21,102 nt of DNA from a virus, in the IMG/VR virus record IMGVR_UViG_3300045999_006958, positions 1 through 21,102 of that record; one strand, 5' to 3'. A model generated the notes under the pieces. It ran no database searches. It was given only the letters and a program-made list of their open reading frames with translations, and had not been told where the DNA came from. Positions within the stretch are counted from its first letter, which is position 1; each line of letters starts with the position of its first letter. Positions 3,411 to 15,896 of this stretch are shown here, piece after piece. The translations under genes were made by a program, and so were the position numbers.

Positions 3411-6400
3411 GTGGCCTACAGAGCCGATATTGAAATTGCGGTTCGCGGCGCACAAGAACTCAAGCGCCTGCAGAATGAAATTTCAGCCACCTCTAAGTTA
3501 GTTGACGGTTTAAATAACTATCTAGAAAACATAGGCACAGGAGGTATAGTAAGAAGCGTAAATAATTTAAAATCTGTAGTAGCAGACGCCGCAGAAGCGT
3601 TTAATAAAGCTGCTCTAGGTACAGATGAAGCTACGATTGCAGCCAGAAAATATGCTCAAGCTACTGATAGCTTAAATGCCGGCTTACGAGAACGTGCAGC
3701 GTTACTAGACAAAATAAATAGGCAAGAACGAGCAGCTGCTTTAGTGCGTGCAGGCGTAAATATGCCTGCTTCTCAACTCTTGCTTCCAGCAGCTGCACCT
3801 GGGGCCCCGGCAATGAGTGGCGGTGCCCGCCGCCGAATTACCGGCCCTGTGGAACGCCTTGGCGGCGCACGCACCGAAGACCAAGCTGCAATGGCCTTGC
3901 GCTTCGCGCAGGCTCTTGAAGAACAAGTACGCCCGTTAAGTCAGATACAGGCGCTATACGCGGGGATCGCCGGTCAAGCGGTAAAACTGCAGGGGATAAA
4001 GGCTCTGCCCGACTCCACAATGCTTAACGCTTCTGCAAGAGGCATTAAACAACTTGAACTAGGTCAAGACAGTTACAACCGCGAACTTAAAGAATCGGCA
4101 GACCGTATTCAGCAACTTGACCGACTTGAAGAAAGCCGTGCCCGTAGGGCGCGTAAATTACAAGATAGACAAGCATATTTTAACAACGAACCCGCATCAT
4201 CAGTAGCAGGTCCAGGAGGCTTTGGCACTGCTATGCGTGGTCGTGCTGGAGGCGCTATCAGTAGTGCAATTATTGGTGGCGGCTTTCCTCTACTGTTCGG
4301 TCAAGGAGCAGCTGCGGCAACAGGCGGTGCCCTTGGCGGTTTAGCCGGCGGTCTTCTCGGAGGAGGTTTCGGCTTCGCGCTTTCTATTGCTGGTACGGCT
4401 ATCGGAGATATAATTACACAGTCGGAAACATTAAATAAATCTCTGGCAAATCTTAATTCTAGTTTGTCTTCAACTGGCAACACATCGACTACAACGGCAG
4501 ATGACATAAAGAGCCTGGCAAAAACACTGCAAATAACAAATGACGAAGCTCTAAAGCTAGTAAATACTTTTAGCCAGTTCGGAGACGCCCAAACGCGAGA
4601 GGCTTTGGCAACGCTGTTTGGGGGCGTTGGAGGAGCAGCTACATTTGAAGCTATTGCCCGCGCTGGAATAGACGAGAAAAACGCGCTGTCCTCTATATTT
4701 GAACTGCGTAAGTACATTGGTACTGAAGCTGCCAATCAATTAGCGTTACAGCTAAATACAGTTGGAGCAACGCAAACTCAAGCCGCTCTACTAAAACTTG
4801 TAGTTGAAAGAAGCATACAAAGTGCCGTAGCTGCTAAGAGTCAAGTGCAGTTTACGGATAATCTGCTAAGTACGTGGGAAAATATCGTTGCAGGCATTGC
4901 AGGCGCATTAAGCCTAGCTATTCAATTTATACAAAAAATGCGCGAGGGTAGTTTACTGAGACTACCCTTCCTGGATCAAGTTGCTGCTGCGCTGGAAGGT
5001 GTAAGAGCCCGCAGCGGTAAGCAAATTGCTACACAAAATGCGGCTGAACTTGAAAAACAAATGCGGGCTGCTGTTGAAGCAGCAATGAGAGGTTTGACGC
5101 AAGAAACAGGAGCTTTGGGATTACAAAGTGCTTTACAGGATCAGTACACAGCAAAACCCAAGGGACCTGAAAGTCGTGCGGGGCAATTAAAAGAAGAACT
5201 TGCAGCAATAGTAGCCATCGGTGAAGCAGAAGACCGCATCAGAGATTTGCAGTTCCAGGGTAGGGACTACACAGCATTGGCAGCAGAAGAAGACAAAATT
5301 AGAGCAGATATTGAACGCGATCGCGTAAAAGCTCTTTTAAGTGCAAATTACGCTAGCGAAAAAGGTCTAATTAACCAGATTGCCCTGGCACGTCTTGAAA
5401 ACTTGCGTTTAGAAACAGCGGACAAGGCTCGGGCAATCAATCAGAAGAAATTTGAAGACGAGTTGCAGGCAGCAGCTGCTGTAAGGCAAAGCGTGCAGTC
5501 GTTTGTGCAGATTCGTAAAGAGCAAGAGTTCCAAGCTCAATACGCTAAAACGTACAACCGCCTTGTTACCGAAGGTTTGCTGCCCGCAGAGGCACAACGA
5601 ATTGCTAACTACGAAAAAATGATTGCACAGCAACTAGATGCTGTGGCAGAGCAAATTAAAATTACGGACCTTGCAATTATTGAGGCTAAGGCCCGTGGTG
5701 CAAGCACCGTTGAACTAGAAAAACAACTCAAAATCTATAAAGATCAGCAAGATGCTATTAAAGGTGAAGCTGCAAAAGGCCCTGGTGAAGGCCCTACAGA
5801 TCGCCAACGTCTAGAAGATCAAATAGCAAAACTACGCGGCGAGCTAAACACGCTAACTGATCCCATTAATCAAATTACAGCTGCTGCTGAAGGCATTGGA
5901 TCCGCCTTTGCCAACTCGTTCAAGGGAGTTGTATCTGGCGCCATGACCGCCCAAGAGGCGCTGTCCTCGTTCTTCCAAAGCGTGGCCGACCGCTTCCTAG
6001 ACATGGCGGCCCAGATCATCGCCAAGTGGATCGAAATGACGATCCTCAACAGTGTCCTTAACCTTTTCCCCGGCGGCGGAATGGGTCTTGGGGGTGCTAC
6101 GGCCGCTGCGGGCAAATTAAATCCTGCTGTCGGATTTGGGGTTGGCCCTATTGGATTTAGAGCAGCAGGCGGTCCTGTATCTGCTGGCTCGCCCTACATC
6201 GTCGGCGAAAAAGGCCCCGAGTTGTTCGTCCCAGGCCGCAGCGGCGGTATCGTGCCCAACGACAGCCTTGGAATGGGAAGCGCCAACGTCGTGGTGAATG
6301 TGGACGCCAGCGGGTCTAGTGTGCAAGGCGATGGCAACCAGGCCAACCAGCTCGGTAAAGCCATCGGCATCGCGGTCCAGCAAGAACTCATCAAACAAAA

Positions 6401-6425
6401 ACGCCCCGGAGGCTTGCTCGCCTAA
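3411..6425 (+). CDS. Tape measure protein (gpH-like)
   Basis: The protein is 1004 residues and starts with GTG at 3411 (MAYRADIEIAVRGAQELKRL). It has an N-terminal helical region. A Gly/Ala-rich hydrophobic stretch spans about residues 283-335 (AIIGGGFPLLFGQGAAAATG, then GGLLGGGFGFALSIAG) and may insert in the host membrane during DNA entry. Long charged coiled-coil segments lie at about 570-810. A lambda-type C-terminal domain covers about 826-886 (FKGVVSGAMTAQEALSSFFQ, ADRFLDMAAQIIAKWIEM). Near 917-945 is the terminal signature AAGGPVSAGSPYIVGEKGPE with LFVPGRSGG. At about 0.15 nm per residue the tail would be near 150 nm. Most of 3480-5880 is AT-richer, with different codon use from the GC-rich start and end, a mosaic pattern. 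A HIP1 octamer lies at 5317-5324. Confidence 0.92.
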   Translation: MAYRADIEIAVRGAQELKRLQNEISATSKLVDGLNNYLENIGTGGIVRSVNNLKSVVADAAEAFNKAALGTDEATIAARKYAQATDSLNAGLRERAALLDKINRQERAAALVRAGVNMPASQLLLPAAAPGAPAMSGGARRRITGPVERLGGARTEDQAAMALRFAQALEEQVRPLSQIQALYAGIAGQAVKLQGIKALPDSTMLNASARGIKQLELGQDSYNRELKESADRIQQLDRLEESRARRARKLQDRQAYFNNEPASSVAGPGGFGTAMRGRAGGAISSAIIGGGFPLLFGQGAAAATGGALGGLAGGLLGGGFGFALSIAGTAIGDIITQSETLNKSLANLNSSLSSTGNTSTTTADDIKSLAKTLQITNDEALKLVNTFSQFGDAQTREALATLFGGVGGAATFEAIARAGIDEKNALSSIFELRKYIGTEAANQLALQLNTVGATQTQAALLKLVVERSIQSAVAAKSQVQFTDNLLSTWENIVAGIAGALSLAIQFIQKMREGSLLRLPFLDQVAAALEGVRARSGKQIATQNAAELEKQMRAAVEAAMRGLTQETGALGLQSALQDQYTAKPKGPESRAGQLKEELAAIVAIGEAEDRIRDLQFQGRDYTALAAEEDKIRADIERDRVKALLSANYASEKGLINQIALARLENLRLETADKARAINQKKFEDELQAAAAVRQSVQSFVQIRKEQEFQAQYAKTYNRLVTEGLLPAEAQRIANYEKMIAQQLDAVAEQIKITDLAIIEAKARGASTVELEKQLKIYKDQQDAIKGEAAKGPGEGPTDRQRLEDQIAKLRGELNTLTDPINQITAAAEGIGSAFANSFKGVVSGAMTAQEALSSFFQSVADRFLDMAAQIIAKWIEMTILNSVLNLFPGGGMGLGGATAAAGKLNPAVGFGVGPIGFRAAGGPVSAGSPYIVGEKGPELFVPGRSGGIVPNDSLGMGSANVVVNVDASGSSVQGDGNQANQLGKAIGIAVQQELIKQKRPGGLLA
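4945..4968 (+). repeat. Inverted repeat inside the tape measure gene
   Basis: AGGGTAGT (4945-4952) and ACTACCCT (4961-4968) form a perfect 8-bp stem with an 8-base loop inside the coding sequence (around SLLRLPF). No T-run follows. The role is unknown and it may be chance. Confidence 0.35.
5317..5324. other. HIP1 octamer (GCGATCGC)
   Basis: Second copy, inside the tape measure gene in an AT-richer block. Confidence 0.5.
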
Positions 6426-6766
6426 TGGCCACCTTCCCCAGCTACAACCCGACCTACTCGGCCAACAAGAGCAGTCAGCCGAATGTCCGCACGGTCCGAT
6501 TCGGCGACGGCTACCAACAGCGCCTGACCTACGGCCTCAACCAAAATCCGAAAGAGTGGCGCCTCAGCTTCAACGTCACCGACGCTGACGCCGACATCAT
6601 CGAAACCTTCCTAAACGACCGCGCCGCCGACAACGCCAGTTTTGACTGGACCCCACCCGACACCACCACGTCTTACAAGTGGATCTGCCCCAGCTGGACC
6701 CGCGAAATGTACGATTTCCAGCGCAGCAAAATCGACGTCACCTTCCAACAAGTATTTGAACCCTGA
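6425..6766 (+). CDS. Minor tail protein (gpM-like, Phage_min_tail)
   Basis: The protein is 113 residues. It carries the family hallmark VRTVRFGDGYQQRLTYGLNQ near residues 20-40, WRLSFNV, a helix (DADIIETFLNDRAADNASFDW), then TPP...YKWICPSWTREM and a C-terminal strand IDVTFQQVFEP. This matches lambda gpM / phage minor tail family proteins, which form the ring joining tail tube and tip. The ATG overlaps the tape measure stop (TAATG at 6423-6427) and the TGA at 6764-6766 overlaps the next ATG, so the tip genes M, L, K, I and J form a tightly coupled chain. Confidence 0.9.
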   Translation: MATFPSYNPTYSANKSSQPNVRTVRFGDGYQQRLTYGLNQNPKEWRLSFNVTDADADIIETFLNDRAADNASFDWTPPDTTTSYKWICPSWTREMYDFQRSKIDVTFQQVFEP

Positions 6767-7659
6767 TGGCGTATTCAGCCTGGGCCAGTTCAACCGCTTA
6801 TGCCGTTGGCGCGATTGTCCGCGCCACCAGCCTGCAGGCATCCGGCCTCGTCTTCCAATGCACCACAGCTGGCACCAGCTCCAGCGCCCAACCCGCCTGG
6901 CCAACCGACATTGGCAGCACCATCACCGATGGCACGGTTGTTTGGACGGCGATCAGCAGCGTCTACGAAGAACTGGCCGCGCTGGCACCGAGCGCCATCA
7001 TCGAACTATTTGAGATGACGCTTGACAGCGCCCTGCACGGCAGCAGTGACACCTATCGCTGGCACAACGGCTGCAACGCCAACGTCACCGGCAACATCAC
7101 TTGGAACGGCAATACCTACACCCGCCTGCCCGTCAAGGCCGACGGTTTTGAATACAGCAACACCGGCACGCTGCCGCGCCCCACACTGACCATCAGCAAC
7201 TTGGACGGCACCATGACCACGCTGCTGTTGCTGGTCAACGCCACCACACCCGGCAACGACCTCGGTGGCGCCACCGTCAAACGCATCCGCACCCTCAAGA
7301 AATACCTAGACGGCGAAACCTCCGCCGACCCACATGCCAAATTCCCCGATGAGGTCTGGTACGTGGACCGCAAAGCAAGCGAAAACCGCGACTCTGTGAG
7401 CTTCGAGCTGGCCAGCAAATTCGACCTCGCTGGCGTGATGATCCCCAAGCGCCAGATCATCGCCAACATCTGCCAGTGGCGTTACCGCAGCACCGAGTGC
7501 GGCTACACCGGCAGCAACTACTGGGACGCCAACGACAACGTGGTGGGCACGCTGGCACAGGACAAATGCGGCAAACGCCTCAGCTCCTGCAAATTACGTT
7601 TCGGCGAAGTCGCTGAATTGCCCTTCGGATCCTTCCCCGGCGCCGGTCTGACCCAATGA
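6766..7659 (+). CDS. Tail tip protein gpL-like, Fe-S cysteine set, with extra N-terminal domain
   Basis: The protein is 297 residues; lambda gpL is 232. Residues from about 80 onward match gpL: IIELFEMTLDSALHG, then TYTRLPVKADGFEYS, and LPRPTLTISNLDGTMTTLL. Four cysteines in the C-terminal part, C236, C245, C268 and C275, have C-x8-C and C-x6-C spacing (NICQWRYRSTECGYTG; DKCGKRLSSC), as in the lambda gpL [4Fe-4S] ligands, so a cluster is likely. Residues about 3-70 are an added module (WASSTAYAVGAIVRA, LVFQCTTAGTSS, PAWPTDIGS, DGTVVWTAI). It resembles small aromatic, carbohydrate-binding-like domains common in phage tail proteins. The gene ends in an ATGA overlap with gpK. The cluster is inferred from cysteine spacing only. 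Confidence 0.88.
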   Translation: MAYSAWASSTAYAVGAIVRATSLQASGLVFQCTTAGTSSSAQPAWPTDIGSTITDGTVVWTAISSVYEELAALAPSAIIELFEMTLDSALHGSSDTYRWHNGCNANVTGNITWNGNTYTRLPVKADGFEYSNTGTLPRPTLTISNLDGTMTTLLLLVNATTPGNDLGGATVKRIRTLKKYLDGETSADPHAKFPDEVWYVDRKASENRDSVSFELASKFDLAGVMIPKRQIIANICQWRYRSTECGYTGSNYWDANDNVVGTLAQDKCGKRLSSCKLRFGEVAELPFGSFPGAGLTQ

Positions 7660-8369
7660 AACTCAGCAAAGCCATCCAAGAAGCTGCCCTGGAGCACGCC
7701 AAGGCGGAATTTCCAAGGGAATCCTGCGGTCTGGTCGCCGTGGTCAAAGGCCGCAAACGGTATTTCCCCTGCCGCAACATGGCCGAAACACCAGACGAAC
7801 ACTTTGTGCTGGACCCGGCTGACTACGTTGCTGCCGAGGAACAGGGCGAAATCGTGGCGGTGGTACATAGCCACCCGAAGACCAACCACGCCCCATCCCA
7901 AGCTGACCGCGTTGCCTGCGAAAAATCTGGCCTGCCCTGGCACATCGTCAACCCTCAGACCGAACAGTGGGGCTACTGCGAGCCCGAGGGTTTCGAGCTG
8001 CCCTACGTGGGACGCGAATTCGTCTTCGGCGTTGTGGACTGCTACACCCTCTGCCGCGACTGGTACAACCGCGAATTCGGCCTCAACCTCAGCGACTACG
8101 ACCGCCGCGACCAGTTCTGGCTCAAGGGTGAGAATTTATACCTAGACAACTTCGCCAACGAGGGTTTTTACCCAATCCCCTTGGAAGAACTGCAGTACGG
8201 CGACGCGATTTTGATGCAGCTCCAGTCACCGCTGCCCAACCACGCTGCCGTCTACTTGGGCGACCAGTTGATTCTGCACCACCTACAAGGCCGACTCAGT
8301 AGCCGTGATCTGTACGGCGGTTATTATTTGAAGAGCACCGCCCGAGTCCTGCGGCATGAAAGTCGTTAA
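7656..8369 (+). CDS. Tail tip protein gpK-like: JAMM peptidase plus NlpC/P60 hydrolase
   Basis: The protein is 237 residues with two catalytic modules. Residues 1-110 form a JAB/MPN domain: E22 in PRESCGL, then VVHSHPKTNHAPSQAD with H71, H73, S81 and D84, the metal-binding HxH...S..D signature. Residues 115-237 form an NlpC/P60 domain: C129 in GVVDCYTLCRDWY is the nucleophile and H196 in PNHAAVYLG its partner, followed by LILHHLQGRLSSRDLYGGYY. In lambda-like phages this protein helps tip assembly, and its peptidase likely cuts peptidoglycan at infection. All key residues appear intact. It is coupled to gpL by ATGA and overlaps gpI by 14 bases. Confidence 0.93.
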   Translation: MKLSKAIQEAALEHAKAEFPRESCGLVAVVKGRKRYFPCRNMAETPDEHFVLDPADYVAAEEQGEIVAVVHSHPKTNHAPSQADRVACEKSGLPWHIVNPQTEQWGYCEPEGFELPYVGREFVFGVVDCYTLCRDWYNREFGLNLSDYDRRDQFWLKGENLYLDNFANEGFYPIPLEELQYGDAILMQLQSPLPNHAAVYLGDQLILHHLQGRLSSRDLYGGYYLKSTARVLRHESR

Positions 8370-9003
8370 GGTCTACGGCGCACTCCGCAAAAAGCTCGGC
8401 CAGTGCCGCTTCCAGTTTGAAGCCGACACGCCTGCCCAAGCCCTCAAGGCACTCTGCGTCAACTTTCCCGGCCTTGAAAAGTGGCTGCTGGATAGCGAGC
8501 AAGACGGTGTTGGCTACCGCGTAACAATCGGCAGAGAAAAAGTTACTGAGCAAAACGCAGTTTTGATTGCGGCACCATTTAGTGAGCGCGAAGTTTTCAG
8601 TATTACGCCTGTAATTGCTGGTGCCGGCCAAGGCGCAGGACAGATTTTTGCAGGCATCGGCCTTATTGCGCTGGCTATTGTCGCCGGTCCAGCCGGTGCT
8701 GGCTTTTTAGGTTTAGGCGCTGGCATTTTTTCGGGTGCTACAGCCGCAACTATCTCTACAACCTTGGGTCTAGTAGGAGCGTCGCTTGTTCTTGGAGGCA
8801 TTGCCCAGGCAATTTCACCTGCACCGGTGCAATCTTCTGCGTCGTTTGAACGAGGGCGCGACGCGGCAAAATTTGAGTCTTTTACGTTTTCCGGCATCGT
8901 TAACACCGCCAAGCAAGGTTTGCCCGTGCCAATCGCCTATGGGCGTGTATTTGTTGGCTCCGCTGTTCTCTCCAGCGGCCTTGATGTTGACCAACTGATA
9001 TGA
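8356..9003 (+). CDS. Tail tip assembly protein gpI-like
   Basis: The protein is 215 residues; lambda gpI is 223. It opens with a ubiquitin-like beta-grasp segment (MKVVKVYGALRKKLGQCRFQ, TPAQALKALCVNFPGLEKWL). A strand follows, VGYRVTIGREKV, then a hydrophobic Gly/Ala-rich centre (about residues 90-150: AGQIFAGIGLIALAIVAGPA) and a conserved end NTAKQGLPVPIAYGRVFVGS. This is the Lambda_tail_I pattern. gpI acts with gpK and gpJ at the tip and is thought to be lost or cleaved in the mature particle. It begins inside the end of gpK and its TGA (9001-9003) forms ATGA with the J start. The middle of the gene, about 8520-8900, is less GC-rich than the neighbouring genes. Confidence 0.9.
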   Translation: MKVVKVYGALRKKLGQCRFQFEADTPAQALKALCVNFPGLEKWLLDSEQDGVGYRVTIGREKVTEQNAVLIAAPFSEREVFSITPVIAGAGQGAGQIFAGIGLIALAIVAGPAGAGFLGLGAGIFSGATAATISTTLGLVGASLVLGGIAQAISPAPVQSSASFERGRDAAKFESFTFSGIVNTAKQGLPVPIAYGRVFVGSAVLSSGLDVDQLI

Positions 9004-12000
9004 CACGGATTGTTGGCTCTGGCGGTGGTGGCGGTGGCGGTTGCTTCCTAGGGCACACTCTTGTTGCAATTCCCGGCGGCACGCGCCGCATTGACGAGCT
9101 GCAGGCCGGTGATCTTGTCCTGAGTTTTGACGACGAGGGCAAACTGCATGAAGCCAAAATCCTCAAAGTCCACGAACACGAAGGCGAGCGCGTCATTCGT
9201 TACACGCTCTGGGGCGGCGAGCATCTTGATGCCACCCCTAACCACTGGGTCCTCAACCAGTTCAATACCTTCGTCGAAATCGACACGCTCGGTTCCGACG
9301 ACTGCCTCGTTGATGCCAACAACCACCTGCGCCCAATCGTCGGCAAAACCGAATTCTGCACTGGCACTGTCTACAACCTGACGGTCGAAGGCCACCACAC
9401 CTTCATCGCCAACAACATCCGCGTCCACAATGCCGGCCTAGGTCTCGGCATTGCTGGTGCTGGCGGCGGAGGCGGTGGCGGCGGTAAAGGCGGCGGTGGT
9501 GGCGGTGGCTCCAGCCGCACCCCAACAGAAGCCGACGACTCACTCCAGTCAGTTCAATACGCCAGCGTGCTGGATCTGCTGTGCGAAGGCGAAATTGACG
9601 GCATCGAAAACGGCGAAAAGGGTATTTATCTGGAAGGCACACCCGTCCGCGACGCCGCCAACAACGCCAACTTCGAGGGCTACACAGTCGTCACCCGCAC
9701 TGGCACGCAAGCCCAGAGTTACATCAGCAACGCGAATGGCACCGAAAGCGAGGAAGGCGTCAACGTTGAAGTTGTTAATGCCACGCCAGTTGTTCGCACC
9801 ATCACCGATTCCGATGTGGATCGTGTGCGCGTCACGCTGCAGGTCCCATCACTGCAGATCATCGAAGATGACGGCGACATTGTTGGCCACAGCGTCCAAG
9901 TCCGCATCCAAGTCCAGTACAACGCCGGCGGCTATACAACCGTTGTAGACGACACGATCAGCGGCAAAACCAGCAACCGCTATCAGCGCGACTACATGAT
10001 CCCGCTGTCTGGCGCATTCCCCGTTGACATCAAAGTCATTCGCGTCAGCGCCGACGAATCGAGCACCAAACGCCAAAACCAAACCTACTGGTTCAGCTAC
10101 ACCGAAATTATCGACGAAAAACTGCGCTACCCCAACAGCGCCCTTTGTTATCTGCGGTTTGATTCCCGCCAGTTCGACTCAATCCCGACCCGCAAGTATC
10201 TGATTCGCGGACAAAAAATCCAACTGCCCAGCAACGCCACCGTCAATACCACCACTTACCTGGGTCGCGTTACCTATTCCGGCGTCTGGGACGGCACCTT
10301 CGGCGCCGCAACTTGGTGTAACGATCCAGCTTGGTGCTTGTGGGACTTGCTGACCAACACCCGTTACGGCGCCAGCATCCCCACCAGCAGCCTGGATCGC
10401 TATGACTTCTACGCCATCAGCCAATACTGCAACGCCCTTGTTGACGACGGCAAAGGTGGCTTGGAACCACGCTTCTCCTGCAACCTGTTGATCAACAGCC
10501 GCGACGAGGTTTACAACGTCATCCAAGAGATGACCAGTCTGTTCCGTGGTATCGCGTACTACGGCGCCGGCTCGCTCGTCCTCCAGCAGGACAAACCCAC
10601 CGACTCGCAATATCTGCTGGGACCCAGCAACGTTGTTGATGGTCTTTTTATCTACAGCGGCACATCACAAAAAGCCCGCCACAGCGTCGCCACTGTTGCT
10701 TGGCAGTCCTACGACACTCTTGGCGAAGTTGAGTACGAATACATCGAAGATGCAGACGCTGTAGCCAAATACGGCATCATCAACAAAGACATCAAAGCCT
10801 TGGGCTGTTACAGCCAAGGTCAAGCTCACCGCGCTGGTAAATGGGCACTCCTTAGCGAACAAAACCTAACCGAAACTGTCACCTTCTCGGTGTCAATCGA
10901 CAGCGGCATCATCCTGCGCCCTGGAATGGTGATTGACATTGCCGACCCGATGAAGACGGGTACACGTCGCAGCGGTCGCGTCAGTTCTGCAACCACAACA
11001 GCAATAACCATCGACAACAACAGTCTGACCGTCAACGTATCTAGTAGCCCAACTATTTCGGTCTTGATGCCAACCGGCTTGGTTGAAACACGCACCATTG
11101 TTAACATTTCAGGCCGCATTATTACAGTCAACAGCGCCTTCAGCGAAGCCCCCAACGCCAACGCAATCTGGCTCATCCAAACCAGCGACATCGAAGCACA
11201 ACAGTTTCGCGTTCTTAATGTTGCTGAATCGGAAGACGGCATCTACGGCGTCACCGCCCTGCAGTACAACAGCAGCATTTACAACGCGATTGAAAGCGAC
11301 AATACTCTGACCACCCGCGACATCAGTAACCTCAGCGATCCACCTGATCCGGTCAGCAGCATTAGCGGCACTGAATACCTTTACCAAGACGGGCAAGGTG
11401 TATTTTCAGGCTTCAGTCTTAGCTGGATCAGCCCCAAGGAACGTGTTTCTGAGTTCCGCATCAAATATCGAATCGACAATGACAACTGGCAACAAATCAA
11501 TACACCATCACCATCAACAAAAATTCTTGATACACGCCCCGGAACGCTATACATCCAAATTCAGGCATACAGTTACCTGAACAAAGGCAGCACGATTGCA
11601 ACCGCGCAATTTTCGCTTGTCGGCAAAACCGCTGTCCCCGGCAACGTCCAAAACCTAAGTTTTGAGGCCATCAACGCCAACTCCGGTCGCCTGCGCTGGG
11701 ACGAGACTGTTGATCTTGATGTGAAGGTCGGCGGCAAAATCCACATCCGCCACAGCAACCTGACCGACGGCACGGCTAGCTGGAGCAACAGCGTTGACCT
11801 AATCCCCGCCAAATCCGGCAGCGCCACCGAGGCCATCATCCCGCTGGTGGAAGGCGAGGTGCTGGTCAAGTTTGAGGACGATGGAGGCCGCCAAAGCGCC
11901 AGCGAAACCAGCATCATCATCGACCTGCCCGACACGCTGGCACCGCTCACGCTAATCAACCGCCGCGAAGATCAAGACGCGCCACCATTCCAAGGTACGC

Positions 12001-12752
12001 GCACCAACGTTTTCTACAGCGACGAATTTGACGCCCTGACGCTGGATGGCTCGGAATTATTTGACACCGTGCTTGACGTGGACGCCATGGTTACGTTCGA
12101 CGTGATTGGTGACGTTCAAAGTTCCGGCAGTTACAACTTCGCCAACACCGTTGATTTTGGCAACACGTTCTCCGTTGATTTCAGCCGTTACTTCGTCACC
12201 CGTGGTTATTTTCCCAGCGACCTAATTGACAGCCGTTTGGCCGAAGTAGACACCTGGAGCGACTGGGACGGCGGTGTGATCGACGCGGTGAACGCCACCC
12301 TTGAACTCCGCAGCACTACCGACAACCCCAGCAGCAGTCCGACTTGGAGCGCATGGCAGCCGTTCGTTAATGGCACCTTCCGTGGCCGTGGCTTCCAGTT
12401 CCGCACCACACTGACCAGTCACGACATTGCCGAAAACATCCTTGTGGATGAGCTGGGTTATCTGGCCAGCGTCCAACGCCGCACCGAGCAAAGCGTCGCC
12501 GCCATCTCCGGCACCACCAATACCGGCGTGACCTTCACCCACCCGTTCTTTACTGGGACGGCCAGCATCGGCGGCTTAAATGCCTATTTGCCTAGCGTCG
12601 GCATAACGGCGCAAAACCTGCAGGCTGGCGACTACTTCCAAATCAGCGCCGTCACCGGAACCGGCTTCACCATCAGCTTCTACGACTCCAGTAACAATCC
12701 CGTAACGCGCCAGTTCACCTGGAGTGCTAGCGGATACGGGCGAGCCGGTTAA
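9000..12752 (+). CDS. Central tail tip / host-specificity protein gpJ-like with N-terminal Hint domain
   Basis: The protein is 1250 residues and starts on the ATGA shared with gpI. Order: leader MTRIVGS plus seven Gly (1-14); Hint domain C15-N144; second Gly-rich linker (145-170); and from S171 the lambda J body. The body shows SSRTPTEADDSLQSVQYASV, LDLLCEGEIDG, VRTITDSDVDRVRV, QNQTYWFSYTEIIDEKLRYP, TYSGVWDGTF, WCLWDLLTN, YAISQYCNALVDDGKGG and YSQGQAHRAGKWAL, each with a close counterpart in lambda J. About 780-965 are two fibronectin-III-like repeats. The last about 70 residues (FTHPFFTGTASIGGLN to WSASGYGRAG) are a small beta domain common in J-type C-termini. J forms the tip hub and central receptor-binding spike. 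The embedded Hint domain is not part of ordinary J. Confidence 0.92.
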   Translation: MTRIVGSGGGGGGGCFLGHTLVAIPGGTRRIDELQAGDLVLSFDDEGKLHEAKILKVHEHEGERVIRYTLWGGEHLDATPNHWVLNQFNTFVEIDTLGSDDCLVDANNHLRPIVGKTEFCTGTVYNLTVEGHHTFIANNIRVHNAGLGLGIAGAGGGGGGGGKGGGGGGGSSRTPTEADDSLQSVQYASVLDLLCEGEIDGIENGEKGIYLEGTPVRDAANNANFEGYTVVTRTGTQAQSYISNANGTESEEGVNVEVVNATPVVRTITDSDVDRVRVTLQVPSLQIIEDDGDIVGHSVQVRIQVQYNAGGYTTVVDDTISGKTSNRYQRDYMIPLSGAFPVDIKVIRVSADESSTKRQNQTYWFSYTEIIDEKLRYPNSALCYLRFDSRQFDSIPTRKYLIRGQKIQLPSNATVNTTTYLGRVTYSGVWDGTFGAATWCNDPAWCLWDLLTNTRYGASIPTSSLDRYDFYAISQYCNALVDDGKGGLEPRFSCNLLINSRDEVYNVIQEMTSLFRGIAYYGAGSLVLQQDKPTDSQYLLGPSNVVDGLFIYSGTSQKARHSVATVAWQSYDTLGEVEYEYIEDADAVAKYGIINKDIKALGCYSQGQAHRAGKWALLSEQNLTETVTFSVSIDSGIILRPGMVIDIADPMKTGTRRSGRVSSATTTAITIDNNSLTVNVSSSPTISVLMPTGLVETRTIVNISGRIITVNSAFSEAPNANAIWLIQTSDIEAQQFRVLNVAESEDGIYGVTALQYNSSIYNAIESDNTLTTRDISNLSDPPDPVSSISGTEYLYQDGQGVFSGFSLSWISPKERVSEFRIKYRIDNDNWQQINTPSPSTKILDTRPGTLYIQIQAYSYLNKGSTIATAQFSLVGKTAVPGNVQNLSFEAINANSGRLRWDETVDLDVKVGGKIHIRHSNLTDGTASWSNSVDLIPAKSGSATEAIIPLVEGEVLVKFEDDGGRQSASETSIIIDLPDTLAPLTLINRREDQDAPPFQGTRTNVFYSDEFDALTLDGSELFDTVLDVDAMVTFDVIGDVQSSGSYNFANTVDFGNTFSVDFSRYFVTRGYFPSDLIDSRLAEVDTWSDWDGGVIDAVNATLELRSTTDNPSSSPTWSAWQPFVNGTFRGRGFQFRTTLTSHDIAENILVDELGYLASVQRRTEQSVAAISGTTNTGVTFTHPFFTGTASIGGLNAYLPSVGITAQNLQAGDYFQISAVTGTGFTISFYDSSNNPVTRQFTWSASGYGRAG
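9021..9038 (+). repeat. Left copy of the in-frame direct repeat flanking the Hint domain
   Basis: GGCGGTGGTGGCGGTGGC encodes six Gly just before Cys15. An identical 18-base copy in the same reading frame is at 9492-9509. The copies are 471 bases (157 codons) apart, so recombination between them would remove the Hint domain cleanly and keep the J frame open. Confidence 0.85.
9042..9431 (+). other. Hint (intein / BIL-like) domain inside gpJ
   Basis: This is residues C15 to N144 of gpJ, 130 residues. Block A is CFLGHTLVAIPGG with the nucleophilic Cys and is followed by IDELQAGDLVLSFDDEG. Block B is LDATPNHWV, giving T79-x-x-H82. Block F is VYNLTVEGHHTFIANN and block G is IRVHN with H143-N144. 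The length fits a mini-intein or bacterial intein-like domain with no homing endonuclease. The +1 residue is Ala, not Cys/Ser/Thr, so classical splicing lacks its second nucleophile. A-type BIL domains share this trait and carry out N- or C-terminal cleavage and sometimes splicing. All first-step residues look intact, so activity is plausible but not shown. Confidence 0.9.
9492..9509 (+). repeat. Right copy of the in-frame direct repeat flanking the Hint domain
   Basis: This is identical over 18 bases to 9021-9038 and lies in the second poly-Gly linker of gpJ, just before the lambda-like J body begins at residue 171. Poly-Gly codons make some repetition expected, but the exact 18-base identity in frame is notable. 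Confidence 0.85.
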
Positions 12753-13562: not shown

Positions 13563-15896
13563 ATGGGAGTTCCCGGAAGCGCCAATTTTCTACTCGCCGG
13601 CTCGCAGGGCTACCGCATCGAACGCAGCCTGCGGTTCAACTCGGCGGATTCGGCGTACCTCAATAGGACTCCGGCGAGTGCGGGAAATAGGCGCACATTT
13701 ACCTGGAGTGGGTGGGTAAAACGCTCAAAATTTGGAGACGAAAACAAAACCTTCACTGCAGGTTCGAGCGGCATAATCACTTATCTGCAGTTTCAAGATA
13801 ACGTTACCGATGGTCTAACGTTTGCCCGCTACACAGGTACTCATACGTTTCGTTTAAGCACAACACAAGTATTTCGCGATTCATCTGCGTGGTACCACAT
13901 CACCTTGGCTGTGGACACGACCCAAGCAACAGACACTAACCGGGTAAAGATTTACGTCAACGGGACTCAAATTACTGTCTTTACAACTGCAACATACCCT
14001 GCACAAAATCTCGATCTTGAAATTAACAATACAAACGACCACCGCATTGGAAGCGGATCAGTTGGTTTTTCAAGCTCTGGCTATCTTGACGGCTACCTCA
14101 CCGAGATCAACTTCATCGACGGTCAAGCCCTGACCCCCAGCAGCTTTGGCGAGACCGACACCATCACCGGCGTCTGGAAGCCCAAGAAGTATGCCGGCAC
14201 CTACGGCACCAACGGCTTCTACCTCAACTTCTCGGACAACTCCGGCACCACCAGCACCACACTGGGCAAGGACAGCAGCGGCAACGGCAACAACTGGACG
14301 CCCAACAACTTCAGCGTGACCGCTGGCTCCGGCAACGACAGCATGATCGACACCCCAACGCCCTACGCCGATGGCGGTAATGGCAGGGGGAATTACTGCA
14401 CCTGGAACCCGCTCAGTTCAAGCATCTTTGGAAGCAACTTTGATGGAAATCTGAAATTCGACGTTCCCAACGCACGCAGTTGCTTGGGTAATTTTGCGAT
14501 GTCATCGGGCAAATGGTATTGCGAAATTTCTATGGGACAAATTGGGGCGGTTGTTGGTATTGCAGCGGCAACGCTAAGTTTCACTGCAGCAGGTGCTAAT
14601 GACGCGTTTGGCACCATTAATGGGTGGGGTTATGTCAGCACTGGGAACAAACGAACAAACAATAGTGACTCGGCATACGGAGCTTCTTGGGTAGCCAATG
14701 ACATTATTGGTGTTGCTTACGATGCAGACGCCGGATCTCTTACATTTTACAAAAATGGAGTGAGCCAAGGTGCGGCGTTTACTGGTATTACTGTCCCCGT
14801 TGTATTTGCGGCATACGGTGGAGCTGGCACAACTACCGGAACATTTGCAACCTTGAACGCAGGCCAACGCCCCTTTGCCTACACCCCGCCGTCGGGCTTC
14901 GTGGCGCTGAACACGCAGAACCTGCCCGAGCCGTCGATTAAGAAGCCGAACCAGTATTTCAACGCTGTGACGTACACCGGATCTTCCAGTTCCGTTTCTG
15001 TTACTGGCGTTGGTTTTCAGCCAGACTTTATTTGGACAAAGGCCAGAAGCACTACGTTCAACCACGGCGTATTTGATTCTGTTCGTGGCTTTGGTTCTGG
15101 CGCGACAAAAATCTTGTTTACAAACAATACAAATGCGGAGCAAACGCAGAGCAACATTCTTAGTGTCAACTCCGACGGTTTTACTACAGGAACAACAAGC
15201 GTTGGCGAAACCAACAATTCTGGTGACACCTACGTCGCTTGGAACTGGAAAGAAAGCGCCACGCCGGGGTTTGACATTGTGACCTATACGGGGAACGGCA
15301 CTGCCCGCACCATCGCTCACTCGCTTGGTGTTGCGCCAAGCTGGATGGTCGTTAAAAGGCGTGATGCCGCTGAAGACTGGGGGGTGTATCACGTCAGCAT
15401 GGGCAACGGCAATTATATGTACTTAAACGGAACCCAAGGGTCTACTTCTGGAAGCGTGTGGAACAACACAACTCCTACCAGCAGCGTGTTTTCTGTCGGC
15501 ACCTCCACTGTGGTCAATGCCAACACCGGCACCTACGTCGCCTACCTGTGGTCCGAAGTCGCGGGCTTCAGCAAGTTCGGCAGCTACAGGGGCAACGGGT
15601 CCAGCGATGGTCCGTTTGTGTTCTGTGGGTTTAGGCCACGGTGGATCTTGATAAAGACCAGCTCTACTACCGGTAATTGGCACGTAATGGATGCTGTCCG
15701 CGGGACTTCAAATGCGATCACTGCCCGTCTGTTTCCGAACCTAAATAACGCAGAGCAAACAGGCAGCACCGACATTGATTTCTTGTCTAACGGATTTAAG
15801 ATCCGGAATAACATATCTGGATTCAATGATAACGGCGTAACACACGTTTATGCCGCATTCAGCGAGTCTGCCTTTAAATATTCCCTCGCCCGCTGA
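13563..15896 (+). CDS. Large adhesin: LamG-like, SPRY-like and three repeat domains
   Basis: The protein is 777 residues; ATG 13563 lies three bases after the previous stop. About 20-200 is a LamG/concanavalin-like sandwich (SLRFNSADSAYLNRTP, FTWSGWVKRS, WYHITLAVDTT, VKIYVNGTQI, GYLDGYLTEINFIDGQALTP). About 310-435 is SPRY-like (SSGKWYCEISMG, DIIGVAYDADAGSLTFYKNG). From about 465 three related units follow: FQPDFIWTKARS to YVAWNWKES; VAPSWMVVKRRDA to YVAYLWSE; FRPRWILIKTSST to YAAFSES. This is the DUF7483-type repeat seen in marine and freshwater phage adhesins. Such domains often bind surface glycans or proteins, so this is a likely receptor-binding protein. GC-rich blocks (about 14090-14400, 14870-14960) alternate with AT-richer blocks (about 13690-14080, 14400-14870, 14980-15240). 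Confidence 0.75.
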   Translation: MGVPGSANFLLAGSQGYRIERSLRFNSADSAYLNRTPASAGNRRTFTWSGWVKRSKFGDENKTFTAGSSGIITYLQFQDNVTDGLTFARYTGTHTFRLSTTQVFRDSSAWYHITLAVDTTQATDTNRVKIYVNGTQITVFTTATYPAQNLDLEINNTNDHRIGSGSVGFSSSGYLDGYLTEINFIDGQALTPSSFGETDTITGVWKPKKYAGTYGTNGFYLNFSDNSGTTSTTLGKDSSGNGNNWTPNNFSVTAGSGNDSMIDTPTPYADGGNGRGNYCTWNPLSSSIFGSNFDGNLKFDVPNARSCLGNFAMSSGKWYCEISMGQIGAVVGIAAATLSFTAAGANDAFGTINGWGYVSTGNKRTNNSDSAYGASWVANDIIGVAYDADAGSLTFYKNGVSQGAAFTGITVPVVFAAYGGAGTTTGTFATLNAGQRPFAYTPPSGFVALNTQNLPEPSIKKPNQYFNAVTYTGSSSSVSVTGVGFQPDFIWTKARSTTFNHGVFDSVRGFGSGATKILFTNNTNAEQTQSNILSVNSDGFTTGTTSVGETNNSGDTYVAWNWKESATPGFDIVTYTGNGTARTIAHSLGVAPSWMVVKRRDAAEDWGVYHVSMGNGNYMYLNGTQGSTSGSVWNNTTPTSSVFSVGTSTVVNANTGTYVAYLWSEVAGFSKFGSYRGNGSSDGPFVFCGFRPRWILIKTSSTTGNWHVMDAVRGTSNAITARLFPNLNNAEQTGSTDIDFLSNGFKIRNNISGFNDNGVTHVYAAFSESAFKYSLAR

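Follow-up and report, generated by a model that had tools for sequence, protein, structure and literature searches.

Does the tail-tip protein J of an uncultured phage cut off its own N-terminus? The question is raised by a 21,102-nucleotide fragment of the IMG/VR virus record IMGVR_UViG_3300045999_006958 (positions 1 to 21,102, referred to here as the window), in which the first-pass annotation placed an intein-like Hint domain within the glycine-rich leader of a lambda-J-like protein and proposed that J may be processed autocatalytically. The fragment carries a lambda-like tail operon with a tape measure gene (3411-6425), an M-like gene (6425-6766), and homologues of L, K, I, and J in that order. 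J residues 15–144 carry Cys1, T-P-N-H, block F, and His-Asn in order, followed by Ala, exactly as had been described, and the arrangement is far beyond chance. The features of the locus are as follows.

6766-7659, plus strand: gene L homologue (tail tip, Phage_tail_L; Pfam E 4e-55)
7656-8369, plus strand: gene K homologue with JAB and NlpC/P60 domains (Pfam; phrog_30)
8356-9003, plus strand: gene I homologue (tail tip plug / assembly protein; phrog_32, E 5e-45), its stop codon overlapping the J start (ATGA)
9000-12752, plus strand: gene J, a lambda-J-like tail tip / central fibre protein of 1250 aa carrying the Hint domain at its N-terminus
9009-9041, plus strand: leader copy of the J start motif, IVGSGGGGGGG (N-extein), copy 1 of a 32-nt direct repeat
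9042-9431, plus strand: Hint (BIL-like) domain, J residues 15-144
9042-9044, plus strand: Cys1 of the Hint (J C15), nucleophile of the N-S acyl shift
9171-9179, plus strand: His58-x-His60 (Hint H44, H46), invariant and specific to J-Hints
9234-9245, plus strand: block B T-P-N-H (J 79-82)
9303-9326, plus strand: Cys102 (Hint C88; 9303-9305) and His109 (Hint H95; 9324-9326), invariant and specific to J-Hints
9369-9410, plus strand: block F, VYNLTVEGHHTFIA (J 124-137), with Asn at the usual F-block Asp position
9426-9434, plus strand: His143-Asn144 followed by Ala145, the predicted Asn cyclisation and cleavage site with a non-nucleophilic +1 residue (H143-N144 at 9426-9431, Ala145 at 9432-9434)
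9432-9449, plus strand: AGLGLG, a conserved C-flank linked to the Hint and absent from Hint-free alleles
9450-9482, plus strand: second copy of the J start motif, IAGAGGGGGGG, copy 2 of the direct repeat

Sequence profiles and the predicted fold both place the domain in the Hint superfamily. Pfam Intein_splicing (PF14890) scores 37.6 bits against a cut-off of 35.8 when the domain is scanned alone, TIGR01443 is above its cut-off, and TIGR01445 and Pfam Hint (PF01079) lie just below theirs. A profile built from 59 homologues finds the solved bacterial-intein-like (BIL) domain 2lwy at E 1.1e-23, Tetrahymena BIL2 at about 1e-18, and the best intein, gp41-1, at 1.6e-16, so that the sequence is closer to known BILs than to inteins. 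The structure predicted by AlphaFold from a diverse alignment of the domain alone is confident (pLDDT 94.2, pTM 0.88), in contrast to a prediction from near-identical homologues with glycine tails (pLDDT 42). In a Foldseek comparison it matches inteins, BIL, and Hedgehog domains with TM 0.83–0.90, the closest being the BIL2 domain of Tetrahymena BUBL1 (6y75, 6tmm; TM 0.88–0.90, with 6y75 at 0.90) and 2lwy (TM 0.86), with DnaB and gp41-1 inteins also among the matches. The rest of the protein is a lambda-J homologue (phrog_31, E 8e-235; NF049904, E 4e-122, aligned from residue 166; Pfam FNIII-A_GpJ and Phage-tail_3).

The domain is not confined to this fragment. Scans of IMG/VR found over 500 related stretches (516 in one scan), from which we read 139 distinct Hint sequences, each located at the N-terminus of a J, 11–23 residues after the last Met. 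All have Cys1, DATPNH, VYNL, and HTFIA and end in VHN followed by Ala-Gly, and 48 of 130 positions are invariant. Because some of the scans used DATPNHW as a search pattern, the invariance of TPNH is partly by construction, and we therefore assembled a control set of loci chosen only by the J body. In this set, all 54 complete Hints kept every catalytic residue, 20 J genes had no Hint, and 6 were cut by contig ends. A Hint elsewhere in Hint-free loci was looked for and not found. The dN/dS ratio (NG86, 619 pairs) is 0.10 for the Hint and 0.07 for the J body, indicating strong purifying selection, and no decayed copy was seen.

Hint similarity is only loosely coupled to J similarity (correlation 0.50). 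At 60–70% J identity, Hint identity ranges from 60 to 98%, and Hints never fall below 60% even where J falls to about 30–35%, although retrieval by Hint similarity biases these values upward. Two of the loci read, L262 and L081, share a near-identical Hint on different J backgrounds, and a third, L071 (3722-4321), has a chimeric J start in which the N-terminal part of the Hint comes from one clade and its C-terminal part and flank from another, a sign of recombination inside the module. The module moves between J genes, always to the same site.

The Hint was not found in cultured phages: tblastn hits at E < 0.01 were other, distant Hint/intein proteins, mostly terminase, and the J genes read from cultured relatives have no Hint, with cyanophage S-H1 uninformative because it shows no recognisable J after gpI. 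The best match in BFVD is a 1016-aa 'putative gp62' of an uncultured virus. A search of genome contigs for a prophage or host yielded only distant Hints in secreted proteins of Elusimicrobia and others. The Elusimicrobia secreted proteins (loci L084, L085, L087, L088, and L089, around 10001) share the layout signal peptide, poly-Gly, Hint (CFxAGT...VHN), and Gly-rich segment, the same poly-Gly/Hint arrangement in an unrelated bacterial protein family, and a 1701-aa protein of WWE3 (CPR), resembling alpha-2-macroglobulin by eye, has a Hint after a poly-Gly stretch in mid-protein (L082, 10001-10387). A test for cyanophages by psbA was negative in ten long contigs, while the nearest gpL relatives are Synechococcus siphophages at 46%. 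The gene after the J cluster (window 13563-15896) encodes SPRY plus DUF7483 domains (PF24299, E 4e-101) and is a likely receptor-facing or adhesin-like virion protein.

What would remain of J if the domain acted? A comparison of the flanks offers the strongest hint we have about the product. Hint-free sisters whose J is 97–98% identical over the next 251 aa read MTRILGAGGGGGGGGGGKGGGG..., whereas Hint-bearing J read MTRIVGSGGGGGGG, then the Hint, then AGLGLG-IAGAGGGGGGGGKGGG.... The module is therefore flanked by two copies of the J start motif ([IVL]xG[AS]GG). In the form [ILV]xG[AS][GK]G, the motif is present in the leader in 145 of 148 cases and within 18 residues after the Asn in 147 of 148, but occurs once in the Hint-free sisters. 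Most of the cultured J genes read also have a related motif once: WIEGAGGGGKGGGG in a Halomonas phage, IQIEGAGGGGSK in an Acinetobacter phage, RIQGSGGGSK in a Pseudomonas phage, VISGSKAGE in a Vibrio phage, and VKGAKGGGG in cyanophage KBS-S-2A. At the DNA level the two copies form a 32-nt direct repeat, 84% identical (9009-9040 and 9450-9481), although the motif is low-complexity and the identity partly reflects glycine codons. The alignment to Hint-free alleles, at about 81–91% on both sides among the close sisters, breaks at 9040/9041 and resumes at 9452, the two flanks overlapping on the repeat. Recombination between the repeats would delete the module in frame, and cutting after Asn144 would give a protein that again starts with the J motif, a few residues further in (AGLGLG-IAGAGGGG). 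This is not proof, as splicing would keep both copies.

We therefore favor, with reasonable though not full confidence, a model in which the first 144 residues of J are a removable N-terminal unit consisting of a short glycine-rich leader and a catalytically complete, A-type-BIL-like Hint domain that probably cleaves itself from J. From established intein chemistry, Cys15 can take over the Gly14 acyl group, with TPNH assisting, and Asn144, with His143, cyclises and breaks the bond to Ala145. Ala145 cannot trap the thioester as Cys, Ser, or Thr would, and BIL domains lacking a +1 nucleophile give mainly cleaved products (PMC7664689, PMC5874633). In this model, mature J starts AGLGLG-IAGAGGGG.... 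That cleavage happens in vivo, that it outweighs splicing, and that uncapping matters for docking J with gpI and gpL in the tail tip are inferences made without biochemical or virion data. The core of the first-pass reading, a BIL-like Hint in the J leader with complete cleavage chemistry and no +1 nucleophile, survives every test we could run, while its suggestion of a timer or switch in tip assembly remains inference. The gpL Fe-S domain completes the N-terminal J region. The inclusion of gpK among the proteins docking at the J N-terminus is not supported, as gpK was not detected in the lambda virion (PMC10721106).

Splicing is the main rival, although we consider it unlikely. Here the free amine of Ala145 would attack the Gly14–Cys15 thioester after Asn cyclisation, giving a J that starts MTRIVGSGGGGGGG-AGLGLGIAGAGGGG, a longer glycine leader with both motif copies. 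Splicing without a +1 nucleophile is reported for BIL domains (Dassa 2004 and Aranko 2013, cited in PMC5874633 and PMC7664689), and conservation of the leader motif is as expected if it stays in mature J, yet the spliced protein would carry a tandem motif that no Hint-free or cultured J read here has. Why the module persists is a separate matter that overlaps with these chemical readings. It is possible, if doubtful, that it is a selfish mini-intein that does little harm in a tolerant glycine-rich leader and has no role in tail assembly, which would fit its presence/absence polymorphism among close relatives and the similar, or even near-identical, Hints on divergent J bodies. In contrast, it has no homing endonuclease, lacks the splice sites of a classical intein, always occupies the same site of the same gene, and is intact and under purifying selection.

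A catalytically silent Hint, serving as a structural or receptor-facing ornament outside the conserved hub domains of J, is very unlikely given that all catalytic residues are invariant while other positions vary, even though no activity has been measured. Equally remote is transfer of the Gly14 thioester to a lysine or amine of a neighboring protein, as in ciliate BUBL proteins. The closest folds are the BUBL BIL2 domains, BIL2 conjugates ubl4 to lysine (PMC8616854), and the operon encodes a JAB peptidase next to gpI, whose family has a ubiquitin-like domain (PMC1779556), but the J leader is only 11–23 aa with no ubiquitin-like domain, and fold similarity is shared by all inteins. Improbable on present evidence, though less remote than these, is a gated assembly switch. 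Beyond the usual catalytic residues, H44, H46, C88, and H95 of the Hint are invariant in all 139 J-Hints and missing in the Elusimicrobia Hints, and H46 aligns with H48 of BIL2, a zinc ligand whose zinc binding turns the catalytic His into place (PMC8616854). These residues, as a possible metal or redox site, could sense metal, redox state, or docking next to the Fe-S protein gpL, such that only then does J uncap itself, or transfer its glycine leader to a neighbor, and the tail tip matures in order.

Comparison with known systems places the domain nearest to the A-type BILs. As in described BIL domains (2lwy from Clostridium thermocellum; class 1 MafB of Neisseria), it spans about 130–140 aa, has Cys1, T-x-x-H, a His-Asn end, and a non-nucleophilic +1 residue, and is optionally present in a variable stretch of the host protein; 2lwy also has Asn at the F-block position where inteins generally carry Asp. 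Described BILs, however, are in secreted or surface bacterial proteins, whereas this one is in a phage virion protein, at a fixed site, flanked by a duplicated host-protein start motif, and with its own invariant His/Cys set. BIL2 of BUBL1 shares the glycine before Cys1 and a conserved His at the zinc-binding position, but BUBL conjugates ubiquitin-like domains. Phage inteins of TerL, ribonucleotide reductase, DNA polymerase, and DnaB share the Hint fold but interrupt conserved sites of enzymes and splice with a +1 Cys/Ser/Thr, often with a homing endonuclease, while the J-Hint sits in a non-conserved leader with +1 Ala and no endonuclease. Nor would removal of the Hint restore exactly the intein-free host sequence expected for a classical class 1 intein, as Hint-free alleles also lack AGLGLG and one motif copy. 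A class 3 intein was rejected because Cys1 is present and the F-block position is Asn, not Cys, and a Hedgehog-type Hog domain does not fit because His-Asn is invariant and a protein continues after it. Lambda gpJ and its relatives align with the J body from residue about 163–166 on, and the cultured J start directly with the glycine motif or, in lambda, with MGKGSSKG.

Intein-like domains in phages are known from enzymes of DNA metabolism and packaging, with those in the papers read here being in TerL and ribonucleotide reductase, and our text searches of an open library of papers found no paper on a Hint in J. The natural Hint-free sisters make the role of the domain directly testable, as they offer the same tail with and without the cap, and the family is also a ready source of small cleaving domains without a +1 nucleophile. 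A conserved, catalytically complete Hint in the central tail-tip protein of hundreds of environmental phages would be a new way to mature a virion protein without a protease.
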